A stretch of 55,629 nt of DNA, from IMG/VR virus record IMGVR_UViG_3300042556_001736, positions 1 through 55,629 of that record; one strand, given 5' to 3'. This document shows, piece after piece, positions 93 through 55,244 of this stretch (position 1 is the first letter of the stretch; each line of letters opens with the position of its first letter). This DNA is from a virus. The position numbers and the translations under genes were made by a program. A model generated the notes under the pieces. That model was not told where the DNA came from. It searched no databases and saw nothing but the letters and a program-made list of their open reading frames with translations.

Positions 93-143
93 AGTTGTGC
101 AACTTATGTGTCCTATGTCAGCAACAAAAAAGGAGACCCTGAC
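82..143 (+). promoter_or_regulatory. Early promoter/leader element 1
   Basis: TTGCAA lies at 82-87 and a second TTG box (TTGTGC) starts exactly 13 bases later. A leader with GTCAGCAAC (117-125) and the ribosome-binding site GGAGACCC (132-139) follows, ending at the ATG at 144. The same layout recurs before six other genes or operons. If TTGCAA is a -35 box, the hexamer 17 bases downstream is TATGTG. The element overlaps the end of the VRR-NUC gene. Confidence 0.65.
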
Positions 144-506
144 ATGGAACCGACGATCCAAGACTTAACCGTCAAGCGCGCTATGCTTATGCTCAAAGCC
201 GCCGGCGCTCAGTACGCCGTTGTTTATGACGGCGAGACATACGGCACGCTCGAACTGGCACCGCCACCCAAGGTCAGGCGCAGGGGGCCCGGCCGCTACC
301 CACGCGGCGCGACGCGCGCGCACTTCTTCCCCCACATTGAAAAGCTGCAGCCCGAAGAGACCGCCAAGATTCCCTACGGCGACTTCGACGTTGGCACCCT
401 GCAGAGCAACATCGCCGCCTACTGCTCAACCAACTGGGGTGCTGGAAGCGCCTCGGTGCGGCGGTTTGACACCCTGAGCGAGCTGCACGTTCTGCGCTTC
501 TTCTGA
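144..506 (+). CDS. Hypothetical early protein, 120 aa
   Basis: I do not recognise this protein. An in-frame ATG lies upstream at 108, but it falls inside the conserved leader, so I choose the ATG at 144, placed after GGAGACCCTGAC as in the sister genes. The protein has a basic proline/arginine stretch near residues 40-60 and ends VLRFF. It is a single-gene unit: its own promoter element lies upstream and a hairpin terminator downstream. Soluble, with no membrane segment seen. Confidence 0.7.
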   Translation: MEPTIQDLTVKRAMLMLKAAGAQYAVVYDGETYGTLELAPPPKVRRRGPGRYPRGATRAHFFPHIEKLQPEETAKIPYGDFDVGTLQSNIAAYCSTNWGAGSASVRRFDTLSELHVLRFF

Positions 507-553: not shown

Positions 554-608
554 TTGCAATCATACGTTGCACGTGCGAATAGAGTGCATCAGCAACGGAG
601 ACCCTGAC
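554..608 (+). promoter_or_regulatory. Early promoter/leader element 2
   Basis: TTGCAA at 554-559 is followed 13 bases later by TTGCAC (567-572). The leader holds GTGCATCAGCAACGGAGACC before the ATG at 609. Ten leader bases, ATCAGCAACG, are the exact complement of bases 53234-53243, in the loop of the hairpin upstream of the DNA polymerase gene. Confidence 0.7.
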
Positions 609-818
609 ATGCAGATCGTCATCAACACCAACTACGACCTGACCCCCGCCGGCAAGCGCGTCGCCCGCGTCGTCCAGACCTCGCGCGGTGGCCGCCAGCT
701 TCGCTGGTATGTCGGCGGCCGCCTGTACTGGAAGGGCGCTCCGTCCGAGCACACCACCGAGTGGCTCGCAGGCGAAGGTGGCCCGCTCCACCGGCCGCAG
801 CCTTGGGAAGCACTGTAA
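609..818 (+). CDS. Hypothetical early protein, 69 aa
   Basis: I do not recognise this protein. The start at 609 follows GGAGACCCTGAC of the shared leader; an in-frame ATG at 567 would lie inside the promoter element and is rejected. The short basic protein has a likely beta-rich core with a tyrosine/glycine motif (WYVGGRLYWK) around residues 33-42. It forms a one-gene unit between element 2 and a strong terminator. Confidence 0.7.
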   Translation: MQIVINTNYDLTPAGKRVARVVQTSRGGRQLRWYVGGRLYWKGAPSEHTTEWLAGEGGPLHRPQPWEAL

Positions 819-854: not shown

Positions 855-909
855 TTGCAATGCCTGATTGCACGTGCCATAAACTGTGCATCAGCAACGG
901 AGACCGACC
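855..909 (+). promoter_or_regulatory. Early promoter/leader element 3
   Basis: TTGCAA (855-860) and TTGCAC (868-873) are 13 bases apart. Seventeen bases after TTGCAA lies CATAAA, preceded by TGC, which resembles an extended -10 box. The leader GTGCATCAGCAACGGAGACC precedes the ATG at 910. This is the best sigma-70-like match among the seven elements and would drive the zinc-finger/helicase operon to 3684. Confidence 0.7.
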
Positions 910-1845
910 ATGTGCCAGACCTGCAACAACCCCGCCCACGACGACCTGAACGACGATGTCTTCGACATCTTCGGCCTGACCGCCCCCGCCGCCACGCCCG
1001 CGCCCGTTGCATTCGACACCGTGCTGGCCGACGCCCAGATCGCCAACACCCGCCAGTTCAAGGAAACCTGCCCGGCCTGCCGTGGCAGCGGCGTGTTCCG
1101 CAGCTACAGCGGCCGCGTCGTCGGCGACTGCTTCAAGTGCAAGGGCAAGGGCGTGCAGTTCTTCAAGACCAGCAGCGACGATCGCGCCAAGGCTCGTGAC
1201 GCCGCCGACGCCCGCAAGGCGAAGGCTGCCGCCAGCGCCGCCGAGCAGGCCGCCGCGTGGCTCGAAGCCAACCCGGTCGAGGCCGAGTGGCTGCGCCAGC
1301 CGGTCACCGGCGACTTCACCTTCCACGCCGACATGCTGGCCGCGCTGGTCAAGTACGGCAGCCTGACCGAGCGTCAGGAAGCCGCCGTCCGCAACGCCGC
1401 CGCCAAGAGCGCCGCCCGCAAGGCCCAGTGGGCTGCCGAGAAGGCCACCCGCGACGCCGCCGCGCCCGTCTTGACCATGGACAAGATCCGCGCCGGCTTC
1501 GACAGCGCCGTCCGTCACCTGAAGCGCCCGAAGCTGCGTATCGCCAACGTCCAGTTCTCGCTGGCCCCGGCCACCGGCCGCAACGCGGGTGCCATCTACG
1601 TCGTGCGCGCCAGCGACGACACCTACCTCGGCAAGATCACGCAGGATGACAAGTTCATCACCTCGCGCGACTGCACCGCCGCCGACAGCGAGACTGTCGC
1701 CCGCGTCGCCGCCGACCCGGCCGCCGCCGCCACCGCCCACGGCCACGAGTTCGGCCAGTGCTCGTGCTGCGGCCGCGAGCTGACCAACGCCGAGAGCGTC
1801 GCTCGCGGCATCGGCCCCATCTGTGCAGAACGGTGGGGCTGGTGA
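910..1845 (+). CDS. Zinc-finger protein with DnaJ-type CxxCxGxG motifs and C-terminal DUF6011-like domain
   Basis: This 311-residue protein has two DnaJ-like zinc motifs, CPACRGSG (54-61) and CFKCKGKG (74-81), and an alanine-rich charged middle. Its C-terminus, about 282-311, carries CSCCGREL and GIGPICAERWG, matching the DUF6011 pattern of phage proteins. The start at 910 follows the shared leader; an upstream in-frame ATG at 886 is inside it. Its stop overlaps the helicase start (GTGA). Zinc binding is supported by motif; function is unknown, perhaps linked to the helicase it is coupled with. Confidence 0.8.
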   Translation: MCQTCNNPAHDDLNDDVFDIFGLTAPAATPAPVAFDTVLADAQIANTRQFKETCPACRGSGVFRSYSGRVVGDCFKCKGKGVQFFKTSSDDRAKARDAADARKAKAAASAAEQAAAWLEANPVEAEWLRQPVTGDFTFHADMLAALVKYGSLTERQEAAVRNAAAKSAARKAQWAAEKATRDAAAPVLTMDKIRAGFDSAVRHLKRPKLRIANVQFSLAPATGRNAGAIYVVRASDDTYLGKITQDDKFITSRDCTAADSETVARVAADPAAAATAHGHEFGQCSCCGRELTNAESVARGIGPICAERWGW

Positions 1846-3684: not shown

Positions 3685-5783
3685 AGGGCTTGCGCCGCGT
3701 CGTCGTCTAGATAGCCGGTGGCAAACACCGATTGCATGAACTTATTTGTGCCGCCCATAGGCACGGGTTTGCGCGGGGCTTTGGCCTTCGGGTCACCCGC
3801 TGCCAAGCGCGCATCAAAAGCCGCCTTCAAGCCTTCGTATTCAGCCATTTGACGGGACAAGTTCTCAGGGCTGAGCGGAGCATCCTGACCGCGAAACACG
3901 CTGAGATCACCGAGATCTGCGTACTTGGCGCGCAAAGTCGGCGCGATAAGTTCCGCGACGTTGAGGTTATCCATAAGCGCCGGCGAAAGCGTCCCCTTGT
4001 AGACACCCGGCGTGTTGAAGTGGTACGTCGGGTTCAGTGCCTTGACCACCACTTCTGCGTCCGGGTCGATTTCTGCGACGTTTTGCAGGTGGAATGCCTT
4101 GCGGTTTAACTGGTTGGGGTCGGTAATGAGCGCTCGCGTAAGTGGGAGTGAAAGTCCGCCCTCCTGCGCGAACTGGCCGCTCAGTGCCTCTTCCATGGCC
4201 TTGCGTCGCGGGCCGGGAAGCTCACCAAATTGAAGATACCCGCGCGGGTTTTCGATGCCCGCAAAATCACGGATGTAATTTTCCTTGATGAAACGGTTCA
4301 TAGCATCGCGTGCGTCGCTACCCAACGCGGAGTTGGCATACGACATCAAGGTTTCGCCGGTGGTCTTTGCGAAATCAGAACCGGAGCCTTGCATGCGCCA
4401 CGGCATCCAAAGGGGGTTGACGCCGTATTTTTGCTTCAGCCGGCGCGCCGTATTCATGAAGTTGGAACCCATAGTCTTCGTGGAGACGCCCCACGAATAT
4501 GGGTAGTCGAGCATGTAATCCTGCCCGCCGTGCTCGCGGATCGGAATGTCAAGCTCGGTAGGGCCGATGCGGGTGATTGTGGTGCCTGACGGGGTTCGGT
4601 CAGACATGCCCGTCATGAAAGGCCTGTTGACGAGGTCTTGGAACTCCAAAACATTCCGTTCGGGTTCCTCTGACCACCGCTGGCGTTCTACGTCCAAATC
4701 GAACAATCTTGGTTGGTCGATCGTCTTACGCATGCGGTATGTGTCGAGGTCAAAATCGCGGAATGCCAGATCGTTTTCGGCCTGATAAAGGCGGTTTGAC
4801 CGCGTGCCTTGCAGATTTTCGGCGACAGCGCGCCACTCATCGATATCGGCGTCTGGGGTGACCGCGTCGCGAACGCGGCGCGCAATTTCGGGGCTGTACT
4901 CGTCAGCGATAACCTTGGTGGGGTTGGGGGGCGCAACGGTCTTGGGTTGCGCGGAAACCTTCTTAGTGGGGTTAACCGCCATCGATTTTTCGACGGTCTT
5001 CTTGGTGGGGTTAACCGCCAGTGACTTTTCAACAGCCATGGCCGGCGCTGCTTTTCGGAGCATAGCCGGATCGCCCGCCGTATTTATACGGCGTCCAGTA
5101 GGTTCAAATCCGAGGCTTTTGTAAAAATCGACAAGTCGATTTGATTTAGTCCGCTCGTCGAGAGGGGAGGCTCCGAGCGAAACGTTAAGACCTTTTGCAT
5201 CTGCTTCTGCCAGAAACTCTTGCATAGCGGTACGCGCCGATCCTTGCCCGCGTTTGGCAGCAGGCGTACGGAGAGATATTAGCTCAATGGTACCATCTTT
5301 GTTGTCTTCCCAAATTATTTTAGTTGGGCCTGATTTGAAGGTGCCAAACCCCTCGGAGAAGTTAGGCGCTGCCGCCTTTGCCGGCGCAGCGGCCTTCGCC
5401 ACCTTCTTCGCAGCCTTACCCGCGCCGGGGATTGGCAGCGCGGCGAGCGCCACGTTGGCAGCCGCCTCGCCGCGCTTACCCTCACGAGCGGCGAGAGCCG
5501 CCTCGTTGCCCACGAACGCGGCACCGGCGGGCGTGAAGTCGGCCAGCGTCAGCAGTTGCTCTGCGTTCCTGCGCCCGACGCTCACCGCCAGTTTGTCCTT
5601 GAGCCGATCACGCCACGACGTATCGCGGCTTTCAAGGCGACCGCGGCCGACGATGTCCGTTGGATCGAGCAGATCGGCGACATCGGCACTGGGCGCGCTG
5701 TAGTCCACACTGAACTCGCCGCCGCGCTGCAGGCGCTGCAGGCGCTGCGGCATCACGGCGAAGGGGAAATCGGTGGAGCGCAT
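3645..5783 (-). CDS. Effector-like polyvalent protein with GNAT acetyltransferase domain, 712 aa
   Basis: Residues 1-132 are a close copy of the N-terminus of the neighbouring 5783-7090 protein. Residues 166-232 look like a GNAT acetyltransferase, with the acetyl-CoA loop RGQGSA (178-183) and the C-terminal FYKSLGFEPTG. Next comes a tandem EKSxAVNPTKK repeat (two copies), then a long C-terminal region (about 380-712) that I cannot assign. Phage polyvalent proteins of this modular kind can be ejected with DNA and modify the host; that role is inferred here. TGATG coupling to the upstream gene. It is the last gene of the late arm. Confidence 0.8.
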   Translation of the reverse strand: MRSTDFPFAVMPQRLQRLQRGGEFSVDYSAPSADVADLLDPTDIVGRGRLESRDTSWRDRLKDKLAVSVGRRNAEQLLTLADFTPAGAAFVGNEAALAAREGKRGEAAANVALAALPIPGAGKAAKKVAKAAAPAKAAAPNFSEGFGTFKSGPTKIIWEDNKDGTIELISLRTPAAKRGQGSARTAMQEFLAEADAKGLNVSLGASPLDERTKSNRLVDFYKSLGFEPTGRRINTAGDPAMLRKAAPAMAVEKSLAVNPTKKTVEKSMAVNPTKKVSAQPKTVAPPNPTKVIADEYSPEIARRVRDAVTPDADIDEWRAVAENLQGTRSNRLYQAENDLAFRDFDLDTYRMRKTIDQPRLFDLDVERQRWSEEPERNVLEFQDLVNRPFMTGMSDRTPSGTTITRIGPTELDIPIREHGGQDYMLDYPYSWGVSTKTMGSNFMNTARRLKQKYGVNPLWMPWRMQGSGSDFAKTTGETLMSYANSALGSDARDAMNRFIKENYIRDFAGIENPRGYLQFGELPGPRRKAMEEALSGQFAQEGGLSLPLTRALITDPNQLNRKAFHLQNVAEIDPDAEVVVKALNPTYHFNTPGVYKGTLSPALMDNLNVAELIAPTLRAKYADLGDLSVFRGQDAPLSPENLSRQMAEYEGLKAAFDARLAAGDPKAKAPRKPVPMGGTNKFMQSVFATGYLDDDAAQALYDKLLASGAHIK

Positions 5784-7090
5784 CAGTCAAGCATCCCGTA
5801 TTCGCGCAGCAGGCGCACTTTTTCGTCGTAGTTGTCGGGCGTCACAGCGAAGCCACCACGGGCAAATTCTTGCTCAGCTTCGTACTCTTCCATGGCGGCG
5901 GCGGGGATAGCCATGCCCGGAGCCCAGCCGTAACGCTTGAGGATGGAGATCAGCTTGTCATCGAACACGACGTAATTGCGTGTGCCGTCGCCAGCGCCAC
6001 GGCTGCCTTGGTCAAGGTATTTGATGCCGGGGATGCCGGCTTCGCGCATACGGGCGGATGCTTGGGCAGCAGGGCCGACGCTCCAATCTGTTTTTTCGGT
6101 GCCGCCTTGCGGTGAAAATGCTTTGGCAAGAAATGCGCCGTCCGGGTCGTCCCCAAACCGCGCGCCCGCAGCCCGCAGTTCTTCCAATCGCGGCGCGGCG
6201 ACATCACGGATACGCTGGCTCTGCCCGCTCAACGGCGCATCGTAGTCCAGAAAATCAGCCGGATCTGCGTCGATGCGGACTTGATACATGGAGCCAGCAG
6301 GAACAAATTCAGCTTTTTTGCCCGACATCGAATTGATAAGGGTCGCTGCTTGATCCCAAGCAGTCCAGTCTGCGCTGCCGTATGGCTTAAACTTGCGTTG
6401 GTCGAGCATGGCTTGGTGCACGCGGAACAAGTCGCCATCGGTCGCCTGCGCAACGGTCATAATCCGCCGAACCTGTTGCGGGCCGAGGCCCATGCCTTCT
6501 AATTTTTGTGCAGTTATAGGCGAAGCACCGCCGTCTAGAAGGATGCCCTTCCCTGCAAGCGCGTCCCTATACGCTTTCGCCACCCCCTCATTTTCAGCAA
6601 AATACAGCCCATGGCCATACGCCTGCGCCCCCTCGCCCGTGCCAATCTTGCGCATGTCGAAGCGATCAAACGTGTGCGGGCTGCCGTGATAGGCGGTGAT
6701 GCCTTGCGGCTTGACGGCCAGCGGTGCCTTCGCCACCTTCTTCAGTGCCTTGCCTGCGCCGGGCAACGGCAGTGCGGCAAGGGCCACATTGGCCGCAGCC
6801 GCTCCACGACGCCCTTCGCGGGCAGCCAGCGCTGCCTCGTTGCCGACGAACGCGGCACCAACGGGCGTGAAGTCGGCCAAGTCAATCAGCTTGTCGGCGT
6901 TCCTGCGCCCAACGCGCACCGCCAATTTGTCGCGGAGCTGATCACGCCACGATGTTTCGCGCGCCTCAAGGCGGCCACGGCCAATGATGTCCGTTGGATT
7001 GAGCAGATCGGCAACATCGGCGCTAGGCGCAGTGTAGTCTGGCCCCTCGCGGCGCGGCGTCACGGCGAAGGGGAAGTCGGTGGAGCGCAT
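5783..7090 (-). CDS. Effector-like polyvalent protein with ADP-ribosyltransferase-type domain, 435 aa
   Basis: Residues 1-123 match the N-terminus of the adjacent GNAT protein (same MRSTDFPFAV start, SADVADLL, GNEAALAAREG). From residue 133 it has YHGSPHTFDRFD and GEGAQAYGHGLYFAE, then GIPGIKYLD and NYVVFDD near 350-375. This is the pattern of the ART-like domain found in phage polyvalent proteins. It probably transfers ADP-ribose to a host target; target unknown. The gene starts one base after the stop of the ejection-protein gene and is coupled by TGATG to the next. Confidence 0.82.
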   Translation of the reverse strand: MRSTDFPFAVTPRREGPDYTAPSADVADLLNPTDIIGRGRLEARETSWRDQLRDKLAVRVGRRNADKLIDLADFTPVGAAFVGNEAALAAREGRRGAAAANVALAALPLPGAGKALKKVAKAPLAVKPQGITAYHGSPHTFDRFDMRKIGTGEGAQAYGHGLYFAENEGVAKAYRDALAGKGILLDGGASPITAQKLEGMGLGPQQVRRIMTVAQATDGDLFRVHQAMLDQRKFKPYGSADWTAWDQAATLINSMSGKKAEFVPAGSMYQVRIDADPADFLDYDAPLSGQSQRIRDVAAPRLEELRAAGARFGDDPDGAFLAKAFSPQGGTEKTDWSVGPAAQASARMREAGIPGIKYLDQGSRGAGDGTRNYVVFDDKLISILKRYGWAPGMAIPAAAMEEYEAEQEFARGGFAVTPDNYDEKVRLLREYGMLD

Positions 7091-24140: not shown

Positions 24141-25136
24141 CTATACGCCGTTGGGCTCCATGTTCTTTCGCGGCAGCTCCTGCACGGTCATAGACCGGCG
24201 CGGCAGCTCCTGCACGGTCATGGACTGGCGCGGCAGCTCCTCGACAATCATGTTCTGGCGGCGTTCGAATGGATTGAACGGGATTGGCACCGGGCTGCCG
24301 CCGCTGATCGTCGCCGAGTAGAAGATCGAGAGGTTGACCAGCAGCGGCGGCTGCAGCGGGTTGACCGACCGGACGGAGGGCGGGAAGACCGTGTTCGTGT
24401 TGGTGAACAGGGACGGGGAAAGGTTGATCGCGCCCGGAACAATGGCGGCCGCGTAAAACGTATTCGCGTTGACGTAGAGCTGCGGGGACAGGTTGGCCGG
24501 CCCCACGGTGATCGTGGCCGCGTAGAACGTGTTCGTGTTGGTGAAGAGGGCCGGCAGCAGTGCATACGTGCTGTTGAGCGTTGCCGTGTAGAACGTGTTC
24601 GTGTTGGTGAAGAGCGCAGGCGACAGGTTGACCGCGCCCGTGCTGATCGACGCCGCGTAGAACGCGTTCGTGTTGGTGAAGAGCGCAGGCGAGAGATTGA
24701 CTGCACCCACGCTGATCGTGGCCGCGTAGAACGTGTTCGTGTTGGTGAAGAGGGCCGGCAAGAGGTTGACTGCGCCCACGCTGATCGTGGCGGTGTAGAA
24801 AGTGTTCGTGTTGTCGAAACGCGCGGGCAGCAGTGCATACGTGCTGCTGAGCGTTGCCGTGTAAAACGTATTCGTGTTGGTAAAGAGCGCAGGCGACAGG
24901 TTGACAGCGCCCGCCGTGATCGTGGCCGCATAGAACGTGTTGGTGTTGGTGAAGAGCGCAGGTGAGAGGTTCTGCGTCGGCGTGCCGGGGGACAGGCCGA
25001 AAGCAGGCTGCGCGGCTACACTATAGTCGAGCGTTGCCGAAGACGGGCTGAGCGTCTTGGCTTCGATGTAGGCAGCAGGTTGCCCGTAGCCGGTAAAGTC
25101 TAGGGTGAGGACATCAGTCCGTGTTGGGAGCGGCAT
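24141..25136 (-). CDS. Tandem-repeat virion protein (SPALFTNTNTFYAAT repeats), 331 aa
   Basis: From residue 56 to about 261 the protein is nine tandem units of 22-23 residues built on NLSPALFTNTNTFYAATI, plus a degenerate tenth. A second repeat, (R)SMTVQELPR, occurs three times near the C-terminus. The regular Asn/Thr/Phe spacing suggests a beta-solenoid or fibrous shaft. It lies between two spike/tail genes, so a tail fibre or spike accessory is likely. Not recognised as a named family. Confidence 0.75.
   Translation of the reverse strand: MPLPTRTDVLTLDFTGYGQPAAYIEAKTLSPSSATLDYSVAAQPAFGLSPGTPTQNLSPALFTNTNTFYAATITAGAVNLSPALFTNTNTFYTATLSSTYALLPARFDNTNTFYTATISVGAVNLLPALFTNTNTFYAATISVGAVNLSPALFTNTNAFYAASISTGAVNLSPALFTNTNTFYTATLNSTYALLPALFTNTNTFYAATITVGPANLSPQLYVNANTFYAAAIVPGAINLSPSLFTNTNTVFPPSVRSVNPLQPPLLVNLSIFYSATISGGSPVPIPFNPFERRQNMIVEELPRQSMTVQELPRRSMTVQELPRKNMEPNGV
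24354..24971. repeat. Tandem coding repeat, 66-69 bp units, nine copies
   Basis: Units carry GTGTTGGTGAAGAG followed by a variable stretch. They code, on the minus strand, the 22-23 aa repeats of the 24141-25136 protein. Two subtypes alternate: one ends in GAV, the other in STY. Confidence 0.85.
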
Positions 25137-29156: not shown

Positions 29157-30240
29157 GATAGCCGCCGCCCTTGGCCTTGTACTGCTGCGCCAGCATCTGC
29201 GCCTTGCGGGCAGACCACTGCCCCGGCGCGCCACCCTTGCCGCCTGATTTGATCGAGTTGAACAGCGACTTTCGCATGCCCGGCTTGGTGTAGTTGCCTG
29301 CCTCGTTGACGCGCGACTTGCCGCCCTCGGCGTAGCCCTCGACCATGCCGCCCTCGGCGAACTGCAGGCGGCCACCAATGCCGATGGAACCGCGCCGGCC
29401 GGGGCCAGCCGACACCTGAAAGCGGTCACCGCGCAACGTCGGGCCAACGTAGCCTGCCGTGCTGGCCAGCGGCATACGGGCCGGGCCTTGCTGCGGGGCA
29501 GGCATGGGCGCTATGCGCTGGCCGCCACCACTGCCACCACTGCCCTGTGAGGGCATGCGGAAATCCTCGAGTGCCTGCATGGACAGCATATCCGGGGCCT
29601 CCCTGCGGCCGGTGACCTCGATCATGCCGCCCTCGGCCTTGCAGTCCCACTTCCGCAGCGCCAGCGCCTTGCGCGTCGGCTTGCCGTTGTCGTCCTTCAT
29701 CGGGCCTTCCATGCCGCCCATCCGGGCGCAGAAGCTCTTGCGCCGCGCGGCCGCCTTGGGTGACTTCTTGGCCTGTTTTGCGCTCACGGGGGGCTTGATG
29801 TCCTGCCCCTGCGCCTTGAGCGAGGCGCGGCCCTTGGCGTTGAGGCCACCCTCGGGGTTCTTGCCCTCTTTTCGCGTCCACGCGCCGCCTCCAGAGGCGT
29901 ATTCGCCGCGTTTGACGGCCAGATCCTTGGAAACGACGTGTCCGCCCTTCTTGAAGGGCTGCCGAACCGCCATCGAGGGCTGCATCGGCGGCTGCATACC
30001 GCCCATTCGGCCCATCGGAGCGCCCAGTTGCGGCATTTGGGGCTGCATCGGGGCCATTTGGCCCATCTGGGGCTGCATTTGACCCATCTGAGGCTGCATT
30101 GGGGGCATCTGAGGCCGCATCGGAGGCATTTGGGGCCGCATCGGGGCCGCCGGAACGCCTTGCTGCATGACGCTCAGCGCGTCGTTGATCTCATCCCGCG
30201 CCCGAGCTGCGTTTTGGTCGAAGGCGAAGCCGCCGGGCAT
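29149..30240 (-). CDS. Basic multi-domain virion protein (DUF6321-like middle), 363 aa
   Basis: Starts at the ATG at 30240 (TGATG coupling). Residues of about 30-85 are a Met/Gln/Pro repeat built on MxPQMP. The middle has PEGGLNAKGRASLKAQGQ, RRKSFCARMGGM and GKPTRKALALRKWDC, the DUF6321 pattern. The C-terminus (KSGGKGGAPGQWSARKAQM) belongs to another small phage family often found as a separate gene. I infer a fusion of two small basic virion proteins. Confidence 0.78.
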   Translation of the reverse strand: MPGGFAFDQNAARARDEINDALSVMQQGVPAAPMRPQMPPMRPQMPPMQPQMGQMQPQMGQMAPMQPQMPQLGAPMGRMGGMQPPMQPSMAVRQPFKKGGHVVSKDLAVKRGEYASGGGAWTRKEGKNPEGGLNAKGRASLKAQGQDIKPPVSAKQAKKSPKAAARRKSFCARMGGMEGPMKDDNGKPTRKALALRKWDCKAEGGMIEVTGRREAPDMLSMQALEDFRMPSQGSGGSGGGQRIAPMPAPQQGPARMPLASTAGYVGPTLRGDRFQVSAGPGRRGSIGIGGRLQFAEGGMVEGYAEGGKSRVNEAGNYTKPGMRKSLFNSIKSGGKGGAPGQWSARKAQMLAQQYKAKGGGYRD

Positions 30241-41854: not shown

Positions 41855-42151
41855 TCAGCGGCCGATGTTGGTGATGCCGCCGCGCGGCCCAACTTGGACG
41901 TGGGCGGTGTCGCGGCAGAAGATGGACGCCAACGTTTTTTCGTCGTTTGGCAGGCCAGCTTCGACGTACAGCGTGACATAGCTGTTGCCGTTGTAGCGGC
42001 TGATCTTGAGCGTCTTGATCTCTTTGCGATTGCCGGCGGTCTTGGCGATGATGCGCTCGGCAGCTTCGCGCTGCGCGGCGGTGAGATCCGCGAGCGTCAC
42101 GATCTTGGTGGCGGCGGCCATTTCGGCGAGGAGGGCGTCGAGGTCGGTCAT
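41855..42151 (-). CDS. Hypothetical protein under the early-type leader, first gene of the leftward arm, 98 aa
   Basis: The start at 42151 follows CGGAGACACCCA of the shared leader; an in-frame ATG at 42193 lies inside the leader and is rejected. The helical N-terminus (LTAAQREAAERIIAK) is followed by a basic beta part (LKISRYNGNSYVTLYVEAG). No family recognised. It is the only leftward gene with the TTGCAA-type element, so it is probably expressed early, unlike terS behind it. Confidence 0.72.
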   Translation of the reverse strand: MTDLDALLAEMAAATKIVTLADLTAAQREAAERIIAKTAGNRKEIKTLKISRYNGNSYVTLYVEAGLPNDEKTLASIFCRDTAHVQVGPRGGITNIGR

Positions 42152-42206
42152 TGGGTGTCTCCGTTTGCTGATAATTGCTTCTCTCACATGCAACGCACCG
42201 TTGCAA
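42152..42206 (-). promoter_or_regulatory. Early promoter/leader element 4 (leftward copy)
   Basis: On the minus strand TTGCAA (42206-42201) and TTGCAT (42193-42188) are 13 bases apart. The leader holds TTATCAGCAAACGGAGACAC before the ATG at 42151. It mirrors element 5 across the repeat-rich region. Confidence 0.7.
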
Positions 42207-42501: not shown

Positions 42502-42563
42502 TTGCAACCTCACGTTGGATATGAGAGAAGAGGTCATCAGCAACGACCAACCGGAGACACCCA
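42502..42563 (+). promoter_or_regulatory. Early promoter/leader element 5, start of the rightward arm
   Basis: TTGCAA (42502-42507) and TTGGAT (42515-42520) are 13 bases apart. ATCAGCAAC lies at 42536-42544 and CGGAGACACCCA precedes the ATG at 42564. It would drive the run of small early genes to about 45.9 kb. Confidence 0.7.
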
Positions 42564-42785
42564 ATGACCATCACCAAGCTCTACACCTCCTCCTTCACCG
42601 GTGCCAACAAGCGCCCCGCCAGCGGTGACGTGGTGTTCGAAGACGGCAAATCCTACGGCTGGCTGCTTCACCCCTACACCGGAGAGATCGTCCTCTTCAA
42701 TTATCGCAAGGTGGCTGGCACCAGCGTTCTGGCCAGCTTCAAGTCGCCCAAGCGTTCCGCCGCCATCGCCGCCGCCATCGCCTGA
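42564..42785 (+). CDS. Small early protein, 73 aa
   Basis: First gene of the rightward arm. A beta-rich core (VVFEDGKSYGWLLHPYTGEI) is followed by a basic alanine-rich end. The start follows the shared leader. No family recognised. Confidence 0.7.
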   Translation: MTITKLYTSSFTGANKRPASGDVVFEDGKSYGWLLHPYTGEIVLFNYRKVAGTSVLASFKSPKRSAAIAAAIA

Positions 42786-42812
42786 CCCTATCAGCAACCA
42801 AGGAGACACCCA

Positions 42813-43043
42813 GTGACCGCCTACCGCAACATCGACGCCGACAAGGCCCACCGCAGCTTCAAGCGCCTCAAGGGCCGGCAGGTGCGTATCGTGCACCGCC
42901 ACCTGCTGGCGGCCGTTGACCGCGTCATGACCGCCCGCGCCTTCTTCGACCACTCCGGCGACAAGACCCTGCTGCTCCGCAGCCTGTCCGAGGTCTACGC
43001 CCTCAACGCCGTGAAGCGTGAGCTGCAGGCGGAGGGCTACTGA
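42813..43043 (+). CDS. Small basic early protein, 76 aa
   Basis: The GTG at 42813 follows a partial leader, TATCAGCAACCAAGGAGACA, that lacks the TTGCAA pair, so the leader alone is repeated here inside the operon. The protein is basic and helical (RSFKRLKGRQVRIVHRHLL). No family recognised. Confidence 0.68.
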   Translation: MTAYRNIDADKAHRSFKRLKGRQVRIVHRHLLAAVDRVMTARAFFDHSGDKTLLLRSLSEVYALNAVKRELQAEGY

Positions 43044-47130: not shown

Positions 47131-47189
47131 TTGCAATCGGCGATTGCATCTGCCACACAGCAGGCCCATCAGCAAACGGAGAGACCGAT
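47131..47189 (+). promoter_or_regulatory. Early promoter/leader element 6
   Basis: TTGCAA (47131-47136) and TTGCAT (47144-47149) are 13 bases apart. ATCAGCAAACGGAGAGACCG precedes the ATG at 47190. It lies in the divergent gap (47066-47189) between the phosphoesterase and the replication genes; the AT-rich half of the gap (47106-47126) may hold the leftward promoter, but no clear boxes are seen. Confidence 0.68.
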
Positions 47190-47447
47190 ATGAGCATCTG
47201 GGATATCCTCAACCCTTGGGGCGCGCTGCGCGAGGCCCGCTGGCTCGCCGCCAGTCAGAAGCGCGAGATCGAGGCCCTGTACGCCAAGCTCGGCGAGACC
47301 GAGCGCAAGGCGTCCAACTCCGCGACGGACGGCCTCGTCATCCGCGTCCTGCGCTCCAAGATCGAGCGTCTGGAGGACACCCTCAAGCAGGCGCACTTCC
47401 GCGACCCGAAGACCGGCCGCCTCGGCCCGAAGGGGGTGCGGAAATGA
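47190..47447 (+). CDS. Coiled-coil early protein, 85 aa
   Basis: Starts MSIWDILNPWGALREARWL and continues with a long coiled coil (REIEALYAKLGETERKA; IERLEDTLKQAHF). The start follows the leader; an upstream in-frame ATG at 47124 is inside the promoter. ATGA-coupled to another coiled-coil gene. Confidence 0.68.
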   Translation: MSIWDILNPWGALREARWLAASQKREIEALYAKLGETERKASNSATDGLVIRVLRSKIERLEDTLKQAHFRDPKTGRLGPKGVRK

Positions 47448-49905: not shown

Positions 49906-49967
49906 TTGCAATGCGAGATTGATAAGTCCATATGGGTATGTATCAGCAACCCCAAGGAGAGACCCAC
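49906..49967 (+). promoter_or_regulatory. Early promoter/leader element 7
   Basis: TTGCAA (49906-49911) and TTGATA (49919-49924) are 13 bases apart, with CATATG 17 bases after TTGCAA. GTATCAGCAAC is followed by AAGGAGAGACCCAC before the ATG at 49968. It starts five bases after the primase-helicase stop and would drive the replication operon to polA. Confidence 0.7.
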
Positions 49968-50282
49968 ATGGCTACCCAGCCCAACACCATCGACCTCGCC
50001 GCCTCGGTCGTAGACCGCCTCGGCAGCATCAAGGCCCAGATCGCCGAACTGAAGGCGGTCGAGGCCAACCTGATCGCGCTCATCGTCAACACCGGCGACA
50101 CCGCCATTGACGGCAGCCTGTTCCGCGCCACGGTGTCGGAAGTGGCCGAGCGCCAGTCGCTCGACGCCAAGGCCGCCGAAGCCAAGCTCCGCGAGCTGGG
50201 CGTGGACGGCCGTTGGTTCAGCAAGAACCAGAAGGTAGCCAAGGGCTACACGACCGTGAAGGTCGTGGCGCGCAAGGCCTGA
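49968..50282 (+). CDS. Conserved early protein, 104 aa
   Basis: An N-terminal coiled coil (RLGSIKAQIAELKAVEANLI), then a beta part (GSLFRATVSEVAERQSLDAK) and a basic C-terminus (KGYTTVKVVARKA). This layout is common in phage proteins beside recombination genes. Function unknown. Confidence 0.7.
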   Translation: MATQPNTIDLAASVVDRLGSIKAQIAELKAVEANLIALIVNTGDTAIDGSLFRATVSEVAERQSLDAKAAEAKLRELGVDGRWFSKNQKVAKGYTTVKVVARKA

Positions 50283-52887: not shown

Positions 52888-53138
52888 GCGAGGAAGGACA
52901 CAACAGCGCAGGCGAGCAACTGCGCCTCCTGATCGAGCGCATTGAGACGCTCGAGGGGGAGAAGCGGGGCGTCGCGGACGACATCAAGGACATCTACACC
53001 GAGGCCAAGGCCCGTGGGTACGATGCCAAGATCCTCCGCGAGGTCGTCCGTCTCCGCAAGATGGCCAATGACGATAGGAACGAGCACTTCGCTTTGCTCG
53101 ACACCTACGCAAAGGCTATTGGCATGGATCTCCTGTAG
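52884..53138 (+). CDS. GapR-like (DUF2312) nucleoid-associated protein, 84 aa
   Basis: GHNSAGEQLRLLIERIETLE, DDIKDIYTEAKARGYDAKIL and VVRLRKMANDDRNEHFALLD match DUF2312/GapR, which clamps overtwisted DNA ahead of replication and transcription in alphaproteobacteria. The GTG at 52884 overlaps the DUF2815 stop. Full length for the family. Placement just before polA suggests it handles supercoils during phage replication (inference). Confidence 0.9.
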   Translation: MSEEGHNSAGEQLRLLIERIETLEGEKRGVADDIKDIYTEAKARGYDAKILREVVRLRKMANDDRNEHFALLDTYAKAIGMDLL

Positions 53139-53150
53139 GTCTATAGAACC

Positions 53151-53274
53151 GGCGCGCCTGCCCTGTTTCTCCCCATTGGCGGGGCCGGCGCGCCTCTGTT
53201 CTGGTGAGCCGCGCGTGGGTGCGGGGTCTCCTGCGTTGCTGATACACGAAGCGCGCGGCTCTCCCGAACAGAGG
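53151..53274 (+). promoter_or_regulatory. Two-hairpin 5' element of the DNA polymerase gene, loop antisense to the early leader
   Basis: Arms 53193-53215 and 53252-53274 pair at 21 of 23 positions with a 36-nt loop (53216-53251). AGAGG, the likely ribosome-binding site of the ATG at 53280, is the last part of the second arm. In the loop, CGTTGCTGAT (53234-53243) and GGGGTCTCC (53223-53231) are the exact complements of ATCAGCAACG and GGAGACCCC of the early leaders. Upstream, GGCGCGCC occurs at 53151 and 53187 and can form another stem enclosing CCCC/GGGG. No gene lies in 53139-53279. Confidence 0.75.
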
Positions 53275-53279
53275 ACATC

Positions 53280-55244
53280 ATGAGCACACTGTACCTCGAT
53301 CTCGAAACATTCTGCGAAACCAAAATCACACACGGCGCGTACCGCTATGCGGAGGACGCCGAGGTGATGCTGGTGGCGTGGGCGATGGACAGCGATCCTG
53401 TCGCGGTCTGGGACACGCAGGATCTCGTGCATTGGCGTCACGCGCTGCAGAACATCATCGACAAGTCTGATCGCGTCGTGATCCACAACAGCAACTTCGA
53501 CCGCACCGTCCTGCGCGAGCAGGGCGTCCACATCCCCGTGGAGAAGATCATCGACACGATGGTGCTGGCCCTGCAGCACAGCCTGCCCGGCTCTCTGGGC
53601 CAGCTCTGCGACGTGCTGCACGTGCCGCAGGACAAAGCCAAAGACAAGGCAGGCAAAAAGCTGATACACTTGCTGACGAAGCCGAGGCCCAGCAACGTCA
53701 AGATACGGAGAGCCACCCGTGACACACATCCCGCCGAGTGGGCCGCCTTCGTCGAGTACGCCCGGCTGGATGTGGACGCAATGCGAAGCGTACTTGGACG
53801 ACTGCCATCATGGAACGATAGTGGTCGTGAGCGGCTCCTGTGGCTCTGTGATCAAAGAATTGCTGACCGTGGTGTCGCCGTTGACCGAGAGTTTGCACGA
53901 GCAGCTCTACGAGCTTTCGATCGAGCTGGACGATCTCTGGCCACTCGTGCAGCCGATCTGACCGGCGGCAGCGTCACGTCCGCCACGCAGCGCCAGCGCC
54001 TGCTCGACCACCTCAAGGACGCCCACGGCTTCGAGACCGAGGATTTGACGCGCGCCACGCTCGGCAACCTGCTCGACGGAGACCTCGACCCGCAGGTGCG
54101 CGAGCTGCTGGAGATCCGCCAGCAGGCGGCCGCGACGAGCCCGGCCAAGTACAGCGTGCTGCTCAACGCCACGAACAAGGACGGCCGCCTGCGCGGCCTG
54201 ATCCAGTTCTGCGGCGCGGCGCGCACCGGGCGTGACGCCGGCCGCCTGTTCCAGCCGCAGAACTTGCCGCGATCGCCCGACTGGTTCGACGACGACGTGC
54301 AGGCAACGACCGTGGCCGCCATGAAGGCCGACTGCGAGCACCTGATCTGGGACAACGTCAGCGAGCGCTGCGCCTTCGCCGTGCGCGGGGCGCTGGTCGC
54401 CCCCGAGGGCACCAAGCTGGTCATCGCCGACCTGTCCAACATCGAAGGCCGCGTGCTGGCGTGGCTGGCCGGCGAGGACTGGAAGGTCGCCGCGTTCAAG
54501 GCCTACGACCGGGGCGACGGGCACGACCTGTACAAGGTCACCGCCGGCCGCATCCTCGGCAAAGATCCGGGCCTCATCACCAAGGCCGAGCGCCAACTGC
54601 AGGGCAAGGTGCCCGAGTTGGCCGGAGGCTATCAGGGCGGCGTCGGCGCGTACCGCAAGATGGGCGGCAAGGTGTTCGACGCGATGACGGACGAGGCCAT
54701 CCAAGAGATTGTCTCGGCGTGGCGCAAGGCCCACCCGTGCACGCGCAACCTGTGGTACGACATGGAGGCGGCCGCGCGGTCAGCCATCAACAAGATGGCC
54801 GAGAGCTTCGCCGTGCGCGACCTGATCACGTTCGACGTGAAGCCGGACGGGCAGGGCATCGCGTGGCTGCGGATGAAGCTGCCGAGCGGCCGCTACCTGT
54901 GCTACCCGCGCCCGGAGGTGTCGGCCAGCGGCAGCCTGTCCTACGAGGGCATGAACCAATTCACCCGCAAGTGGGAGCGCCTCGACACGTACGGCGGCAA
55001 GCTGGTCGAGAACGCCGTGCAGGCCATCGCCCGCGACGTGTTCATGTCCGGCATGCTGCGCGCCGAGGAGGCCGGCTACAGCGTCTGCATCCGCGTGCAC
55101 GACGAGCTGGTCTGCGAGACGCCGGACGAGCCGGCCTACACCAGCGAGGGGCTGGCGGCGATCATGTCCACCAACCCGAGCTGGTCGGCCGGCCTGCCCC
55201 TTGCCGCTGCCGGCTTCGAGGCGTATCGTTACCGCAAGGACTGA
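53280..55244 (+). CDS. Family A DNA polymerase with 3'-5' exonuclease, 654 aa
   Basis: Exonuclease motifs are LDLETF (D7, E9), VIHNSNFD and YARLDVDAM. Polymerase motif A is ADLSNIEGR (usually DYSQIELR), motif B contains KVPEL (443-447) then GGYQGG, and motif C is VHDELV. The residue at the E. coli 762 position is Leu 447. No 5'-3' exonuclease domain is present. The ribosome-binding site is buried in a hairpin. Next gene by TGATG overlap. Confidence 0.94.
   Translation: MSTLYLDLETFCETKITHGAYRYAEDAEVMLVAWAMDSDPVAVWDTQDLVHWRHALQNIIDKSDRVVIHNSNFDRTVLREQGVHIPVEKIIDTMVLALQHSLPGSLGQLCDVLHVPQDKAKDKAGKKLIHLLTKPRPSNVKIRRATRDTHPAEWAAFVEYARLDVDAMRSVLGRLPSWNDSGRERLLWLCDQRIADRGVAVDREFARAALRAFDRAGRSLATRAADLTGGSVTSATQRQRLLDHLKDAHGFETEDLTRATLGNLLDGDLDPQVRELLEIRQQAAATSPAKYSVLLNATNKDGRLRGLIQFCGAARTGRDAGRLFQPQNLPRSPDWFDDDVQATTVAAMKADCEHLIWDNVSERCAFAVRGALVAPEGTKLVIADLSNIEGRVLAWLAGEDWKVAAFKAYDRGDGHDLYKVTAGRILGKDPGLITKAERQLQGKVPELAGGYQGGVGAYRKMGGKVFDAMTDEAIQEIVSAWRKAHPCTRNLWYDMEAAARSAINKMAESFAVRDLITFDVKPDGQGIAWLRMKLPSGRYLCYPRPEVSASGSLSYEGMNQFTRKWERLDTYGGKLVENAVQAIARDVFMSGMLRAEEAGYSVCIRVHDELVCETPDEPAYTSEGLAAIMSTNPSWSAGLPLAAAGFEAYRYRKD

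Follow-up and report, generated by a model that had tools for sequence, protein, structure and literature searches.

The window analysed comprised the whole stretch of 55,629 nt (IMG/VR record IMGVR_UViG_3300042556_001736, positions 1 to 55,629). Two hairpins formed a tandem pair immediately 5' of the DNA polymerase gene, and the leader pattern ATCAGCAACG...GGAG...ATG headed about 7 early transcripts in the same genome. The leaders were found in long contigs by means of promoter boxes together with a ribosome-binding site and a start codon, and the comparison set consisted of polymerase relatives from viral metagenomes. Table 1 shows the positions of the features.

Table 1. Hairpins, polymerase gene and early leaders in the 55,629-nt window (energies are net loop pairing)
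Feature	Position	Strand	Details
Possible sigma-70-like promoter	53119..53147	+	TTGGCA-N17-TATAGA; candidate, predicted from sequence
Hairpin 1, directly upstream of hairpin 2	53151..53194	+	RNA fold; 2-nt overlap with hairpin 2; compensatory changes at 8 of 9 counted pairs
Hairpin 2, 5' arm	53193..53215	+	Polymerase Shine-Dalgarno pairs with the initial bases of this arm
Hairpin 2, loop of 36 nt	53216..53251	+	Antisense to early leaders; core 53223-53243 = GGGGTCTCCTGCGTTGCTGAT
Hairpin 2, 3' arm	53252..53274	+	Polymerase Shine-Dalgarno AGAGG at its end (53270-53274)
Family-A DNA polymerase gene	53280..55244	+	654 aa; PHROG 17, E 8e-102
Early leader	117..146	+	GTCAGCAACAAAAAAGGAGACCCTGACATG; -18.2 kcal/mol
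Early leader after TTGCAA promoter	588..611	+	ATCAGCAACGGAGACCCTGACATG; -24.3 kcal/mol
Early leader	890..912	+	ATCAGCAACGGAGACCGACCATG; -21.2 kcal/mol
Early leader, divergent promoter	42149..42172	-	ATCAGCAAACGGAGACACCCAATG; -18.2 kcal/mol
Early leader	42536..42566	+	ATCAGCAACGACCAACCGGAGACACCCAATG; -13.3 kcal/mol
Promoterless internal leader copy	42790..42815	+	ATCAGCAACCAAGGAGACACCCAGTG
Early leader	47168..47192	+	ATCAGCAAACGGAGAGACCGATATG; -8.5 kcal/mol
Leader heading the replication operon	49942..49970	+	-21.6 kcal/mol

Hairpin 2, which a sequence-only reading had described with 23-nt arms, 21 pairs and a 36-nt loop, was recovered at the same coordinates, with 21 of the 23 arm positions paired. 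The polymerase AGAGG lay within the stem, as that reading had stated, and the ATG came 5 nt later. RNA folding of 53139-53300 gave -80.4 kcal/mol against -64.0 ± 4.2 kcal/mol for shuffles (z -3.9, 0/200), and hairpin 2 was the strongest long-loop stem-loop of the whole window and present as a single copy. The stem carried a single fixed mismatch (C-A or U-U), flanked by GG/CC and GAG/CTC, and part of the loop paired internally. The loop complements of ATCAGCAACG (53234-53243) and GGAGACCCC (53223-53231), also noted earlier, were both exact. The plus strand had no GC stem with a T run behind it, and the hairpin was rejected as an intrinsic terminator. A leftward early promoter was likewise rejected, as no TTGCAA/-10 boxes lay upstream of the minus-strand leader copy, in agreement near the hairpin with the sequence-only reading. 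Rfam covariance models gave no match at the gathering score in the window and none at E up to 10 in 53080-53320, and BLASTN of the hairpin against cultured phages gave no relevant match.

Hairpin 1 and the possible promoter before it had been overlooked in the sequence-only reading. The predicted start site of this promoter was near the 5' end of hairpin 1, and a CTATA box before hairpin 1 was conserved in nearly all of 29 relatives, which suggests a separate promoter there. Its TTGGC fell in codons of the upstream gene, the spacing differed in L031, L032 and L042, and a strict promoter scan found none ahead of hairpin 1.

The leaders had been said to carry the strings complementary to the loop. 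This held exactly for ATCAGCAACG at 588, 890 and 42536 only, while 49942 had ATCAGCAACC; for GGAGACCCC it was approximate, its full form being found at no other site and the leaders reading GGAGACCCT, GGAGACCGA, GGAGACACCC and GGAGAGACCC. The sites listed earlier stood, and those at 117, 47168, 42172 (minus strand) and the promoterless copy at 42790 were absent from that list. The leader of the replication operon was 3.2 kb upstream of the hairpin in the window and 3.1-3.6 kb upstream in 31 relatives. Leader copies without a promoter were located at internal genes, which argues that the tag acts at the RNA level.

The hairpin was kept by nearly all polymerase relatives of at least about 57% identity with enough upstream DNA. 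It was found in 61 of 80 first polymerase loci and also in L047, which the motif-based search passed over because its loop had switched; the other 18 loci were 4 that start inside or at the polymerase without upstream DNA (L012, L036, L037 and L067) and 14 (L068-L081) that are relatives of ~47% identity. Four further scans gave more hairpins, including L222 at 57% identity, while the host-linked relatives found in a genome scan reached only 43-52% identity. Either the polymerase itself followed the double hairpin directly, or small inserted genes lay in between. In every type, the end of the 3' arm of hairpin 2 was formed by the purine-rich Shine-Dalgarno region of whichever gene came next, and the comparison demonstrated that the hairpin remains joined to that ribosome-binding site even after small-gene insertions. 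One exception, L156, had an unrelated insert and no hairpin within 4 kb upstream. Another, G037/L241 (a partial contig, 30.7-kb fragment), kept the ATCAGCAACG leaders with a terminator-like hairpin in place of hairpin 2; a leader kept with the hairpin lost, which had been named as counter-evidence in the sequence-only reading, was thus seen in one relative against dozens keeping both.

Small genes of different kinds were repeatedly inserted between hairpin and polymerase at several loci (e.g. L006, L013, L022 and L156), and in L006, L013 and L022 the inserted gene uses the hairpin-embedded ribosome-binding site. Small hairpins were also observed right after ATCAGCAACG in two leaders of G037 (L254/L255) at sites 8964 and 13404 (GGGGCGCTGCCCC and GGGGCACTGCCCC). 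The polymerase match of L023 (6001-8883) had an interruption of ~0.9 kb, an intein or intron-like insertion.

Covariation was scored on 23 distinct stems, in which 97.7% of the cells of the hairpin 2 stem were paired. Two-sided compensatory changes occurred at 14 of 21 pairs, with a covariation score matched by none of 500 shuffles, and the covariation of the stem in relatives, put forward earlier as a check, was thereby found. Slid controls, with the partner moved by 1-3 columns, gave far lower covariation, the signal being destroyed. Hairpins 1 and 2 together had 20 covarying pairs of 30. With compensatory changes beyond chance, the region is a structured RNA element conserved by selection, and its folded stem is established by sequence comparison. 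So is its polarity: plus-strand G-U wobbles (about 15 cells) far outnumbered A-C mismatches outside the one fixed mismatch column, which identifies the plus strand, the sense of the polymerase mRNA, as the strand that folds.

Most genomes combined the leaders ATCAGCAA with the loop TTGCTGAT. The L056/L066/L235 lineage had ATCAAGCAA leaders and the loop TTGCTTGAT; in L047/G032 all 6 of 6 leaders had switched (ATCAACAAC / ATCAACAACG) and the loop read GTTGTTGAT, while L038 and L040, 81-82% identical to L047, retained the usual pair; and L236/G031 had ACCAACAA in 3 of 3 leaders with the loop GTTGTTGGT. Loop and leaders had therefore switched together in three lineages. The Shine-Dalgarno side also varied in step (GGAGTACC in L031, GGAGCAAAC in L038 and GGAGCAC in L044). 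In a comparison of own and foreign loop-leader duplex energies in 19 genomes, the own combination was best (0/50,000 permutations), with p 0.0003 without the switched lineages and p 0.001 for the Shine-Dalgarno side only without the ATCAAGCAA lineage; because the genomes are related, these permutation values overstate independence and are not strict probabilities. The mixed genomes G002, G015 and G009 had a few ATCAACAA leaders alongside a GTTGCTGAT loop. Without pairing, such separate switches would be difficult to account for, and the pairing of the loop with the shared early leader, as proposed from the sequence, gained strong support from these coordinated changes in independent lineages. 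The loop has the marks of an antisense regulator, namely complementarity to translation starts beyond chance together with co-evolution. As loop and early start signals changed together in evolution, it is very likely that they pair and regulate early protein production.

Two-strand MFE co-folding cannot represent the loop-bound (pseudoknot-type) complex, hence energies were calculated as the duplex plus the opening cost of both RNAs. Net pairing was -8.5 to -24.3 kcal/mol for 7 leaders against +1.4 ± 5.0 kcal/mol for 300 random stretches, none of which gained more than 12 kcal/mol. The predicted duplex covers the early Shine-Dalgarno and often also the start codon. Leader complementarity was confined to the loop, and the calculated bound state retained 20 outer stem pairs, so that the polymerase ribosome-binding site stays hidden. 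The earlier proposal that leader binding alters the stem and tunes polymerase translation thus found no support, and its bracketed alternative, in which the loop acts in trans on the ribosome-binding sites of the leaders, is favoured by a duplex over the early Shine-Dalgarno and a stem that stays closed. A helix of 21-27 bp within a 36-nt loop is strained, which counts against loop-leader pairing, as does the internal pairing in part of the loop.

These sequence patterns suggest that the polymerase unit probably carries an antisense riboregulator as its 5' untranslated RNA, the loop of which represses or destabilises early mRNAs as an early-to-replication switch. The plus-strand RNA would fold into the tandem hairpins, with the polymerase Shine-Dalgarno hidden at the base of hairpin 2, and the loop would base-pair with the tag ATCAGCAACG...GGAG...AUG at early gene starts. 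In about half of the hairpin types, this loop could in addition pair in cis with an ATCAGC close ahead of the next start codon. Once the hairpin region is transcribed, the loop would block early ribosome-binding sites and repress or destabilise the early mRNAs, and the outcome would be a switch from the early to the replication stage. The polymerase site might be released by RNase III cutting the stem or, equally speculatively, by a protein. We infer the pairing in cells, the repression of early genes as its effect, the timing and this release. If the polymerase leader were only weakly expressed, it could not repress a large number of early mRNAs, which counts against the model.

More tentatively, though with a chance only a little short of even, a tag/anti-tag regulon may exist in which one antisense loop in the polymerase mRNA leader silences all tagged early genes when the replication genes are expressed. 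If true, early shut-off would be tied to replication without a protein repressor, and such one-to-many RNA control of the early programme would be an RNA counterpart of T4 RegB/gp43 control. The general question of why a phage gives the same leader to many of its early genes would become testable, with the lineage switches as natural compensatory pairs ready for experiments, and the design would constitute a natural orthogonal translation-control system.

The opposite direction of control, in which early leader RNA, when plentiful, pairs with the loop and alters access to the polymerase ribosome-binding site, early mRNA being a sensor that tunes polymerase translation, is unlikely. The polymerase Shine-Dalgarno at the stem base in all lineages and the loop-leader co-evolution are consistent with it, and so is a cis pairing: in 17 of 32 distinct hairpin types the loop can match an ATCAGC beside the start codon of the next gene, and leaders in trans could displace this element. 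It is opposed by the complementarity, which stays out of the stem and leaves the 20 outer pairs in place when bound, and by the cis element, which is absent from the window and several lineages. The same element bears on a purely local function, in which stem and loop form a pseudoknot or a protein-bound operator of the polymerase (T4 gp43-like) and the likeness to the leaders comes from a former tag of the downstream gene. The cis match was 9.2 nt with the own loop against 8.05 nt with other loops, the fixed C-A or U-U mismatch would suit such an operator, and in Caulobacter phage RW, which has no shared leader, tandem hairpins with a 3-nt loop enclose the ribosome-binding site in the stem. 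The trans leaders are nevertheless tracked by lineages that lack the cis motif, notably L056 and L236, and the loop reaches across GGAG sequences missing from the cis site, which makes a purely local function improbable.

Little probability is likewise given to leader and loop being sites for a phage transcription regulator at the DNA level, their antisense relation being incidental. At many promoters, the -10 box is flanked by an inverted repeat made up of TTGC boxes at about -22 and the GCAA of the leader, and the TTGC boxes become CTTGCAAG in the ATCAAGCAA lineage. Against this, internal genes have leaders without promoters, the promoters of G022, G025, G018 and G019 have no TTGC dyad while the leader is kept, the Shine-Dalgarno side co-evolves too, and the stem covariation is of the RNA type with G-U polarity. 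A replication origin or other single-strand DNA hairpin beside the polymerase gene would accord with a strong, single-copy hairpin of conserved position near replication genes, and with Bordetella phage BPP-1, which likewise has two hairpins ahead of bbp41-polymerase. It is very improbable, as the hairpin stays with the ribosome-binding site of the next gene despite inserted small genes, the loop tracks the leaders, and the GC skew showed neither a change at the hairpin nor an origin signal.

Caulobacter phage RW (58% polymerase identity) resembles the window in its tandem hairpins and in the ribosome-binding site within the stem, and differs in its 3-nt loop and in early leaders without a shared ATCAGCAACG. 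Because RW has the tandem hairpins without the long loop or the shared leader, the cis hairpin looks older than loop and tag, which occur together. In Bordetella phage BPP-1 (L141 880-1020, between bbp40 and bbp41), two hairpins were observed at the same relative place, one with perfectly complementary 14-nt arms (CTTTGGCTGGGGCG/CGCCCCAGCCAAAG) and a loop not obviously antisense to leaders.

The gene 43 operator of T4 is a hairpin of 16-18 nt with the loop UAAC, located near the ribosome-binding site of the DNA polymerase gene and recognised by the enzyme that this gene encodes (PMC3014915). Both the T4/RB69 operator and the hairpin of the window belong to the 5' leader of a phage DNA polymerase gene and overlap its ribosome-binding site or lie close to it, with presumed translational control (PMC3014915). 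The window differs from this short hairpin with a UAAC-type loop in its 23-nt arms, in a polymerase of family A and in a loop of 36 nt that is antisense to the leaders of other genes, with which it co-evolves. T4 RegB, a protein endonuclease, cleaves early mRNAs at GGAG, and this processing stimulates gene 43 (PMC3014915); the target, the GGAG Shine-Dalgarno of early mRNAs, is shared, whereas the agent predicted in the window is RNA. Phage antisense RNAs include P22 sar, lambda OOP, P1/P7 c4 and lambda PreS (PMC12197685), in which, as predicted here, a phage RNA pairs with a target mRNA and changes its translation or stability. Each of these acts on a single target or a small number of them, as a separate transcript or an overlapping one, whereas the window loop lies within an mRNA leader and would address a tag common to many early genes. 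The alphaproteobacterial alpha-R8 sRNAs SisA-D also use a short single-stranded anti-Shine-Dalgarno motif on many mRNA targets, but are Hfq sRNAs of the host whose motif, UUUCCUCCCU, is generic, whereas the antisense in the window extends over a lineage-specific leader (PMC12559287). None of the compared systems has a polymerase-leader loop antisense to a shared early-gene tag, and the open-access literature yielded no account of a phage in which a loop is antisense to leaders that early genes share. The element thus appears to be a new form of antisense RNA control with a predicted molecular outcome.

Elsewhere in the window, a 300-nt direct repeat (5392-5691 and 6726-7025, 79% identical) occurred in neighbouring late genes, and tandem coding repeats with 69-nt and 21-nt periods were found in late genes at 24365-24971 and 30004-30148.
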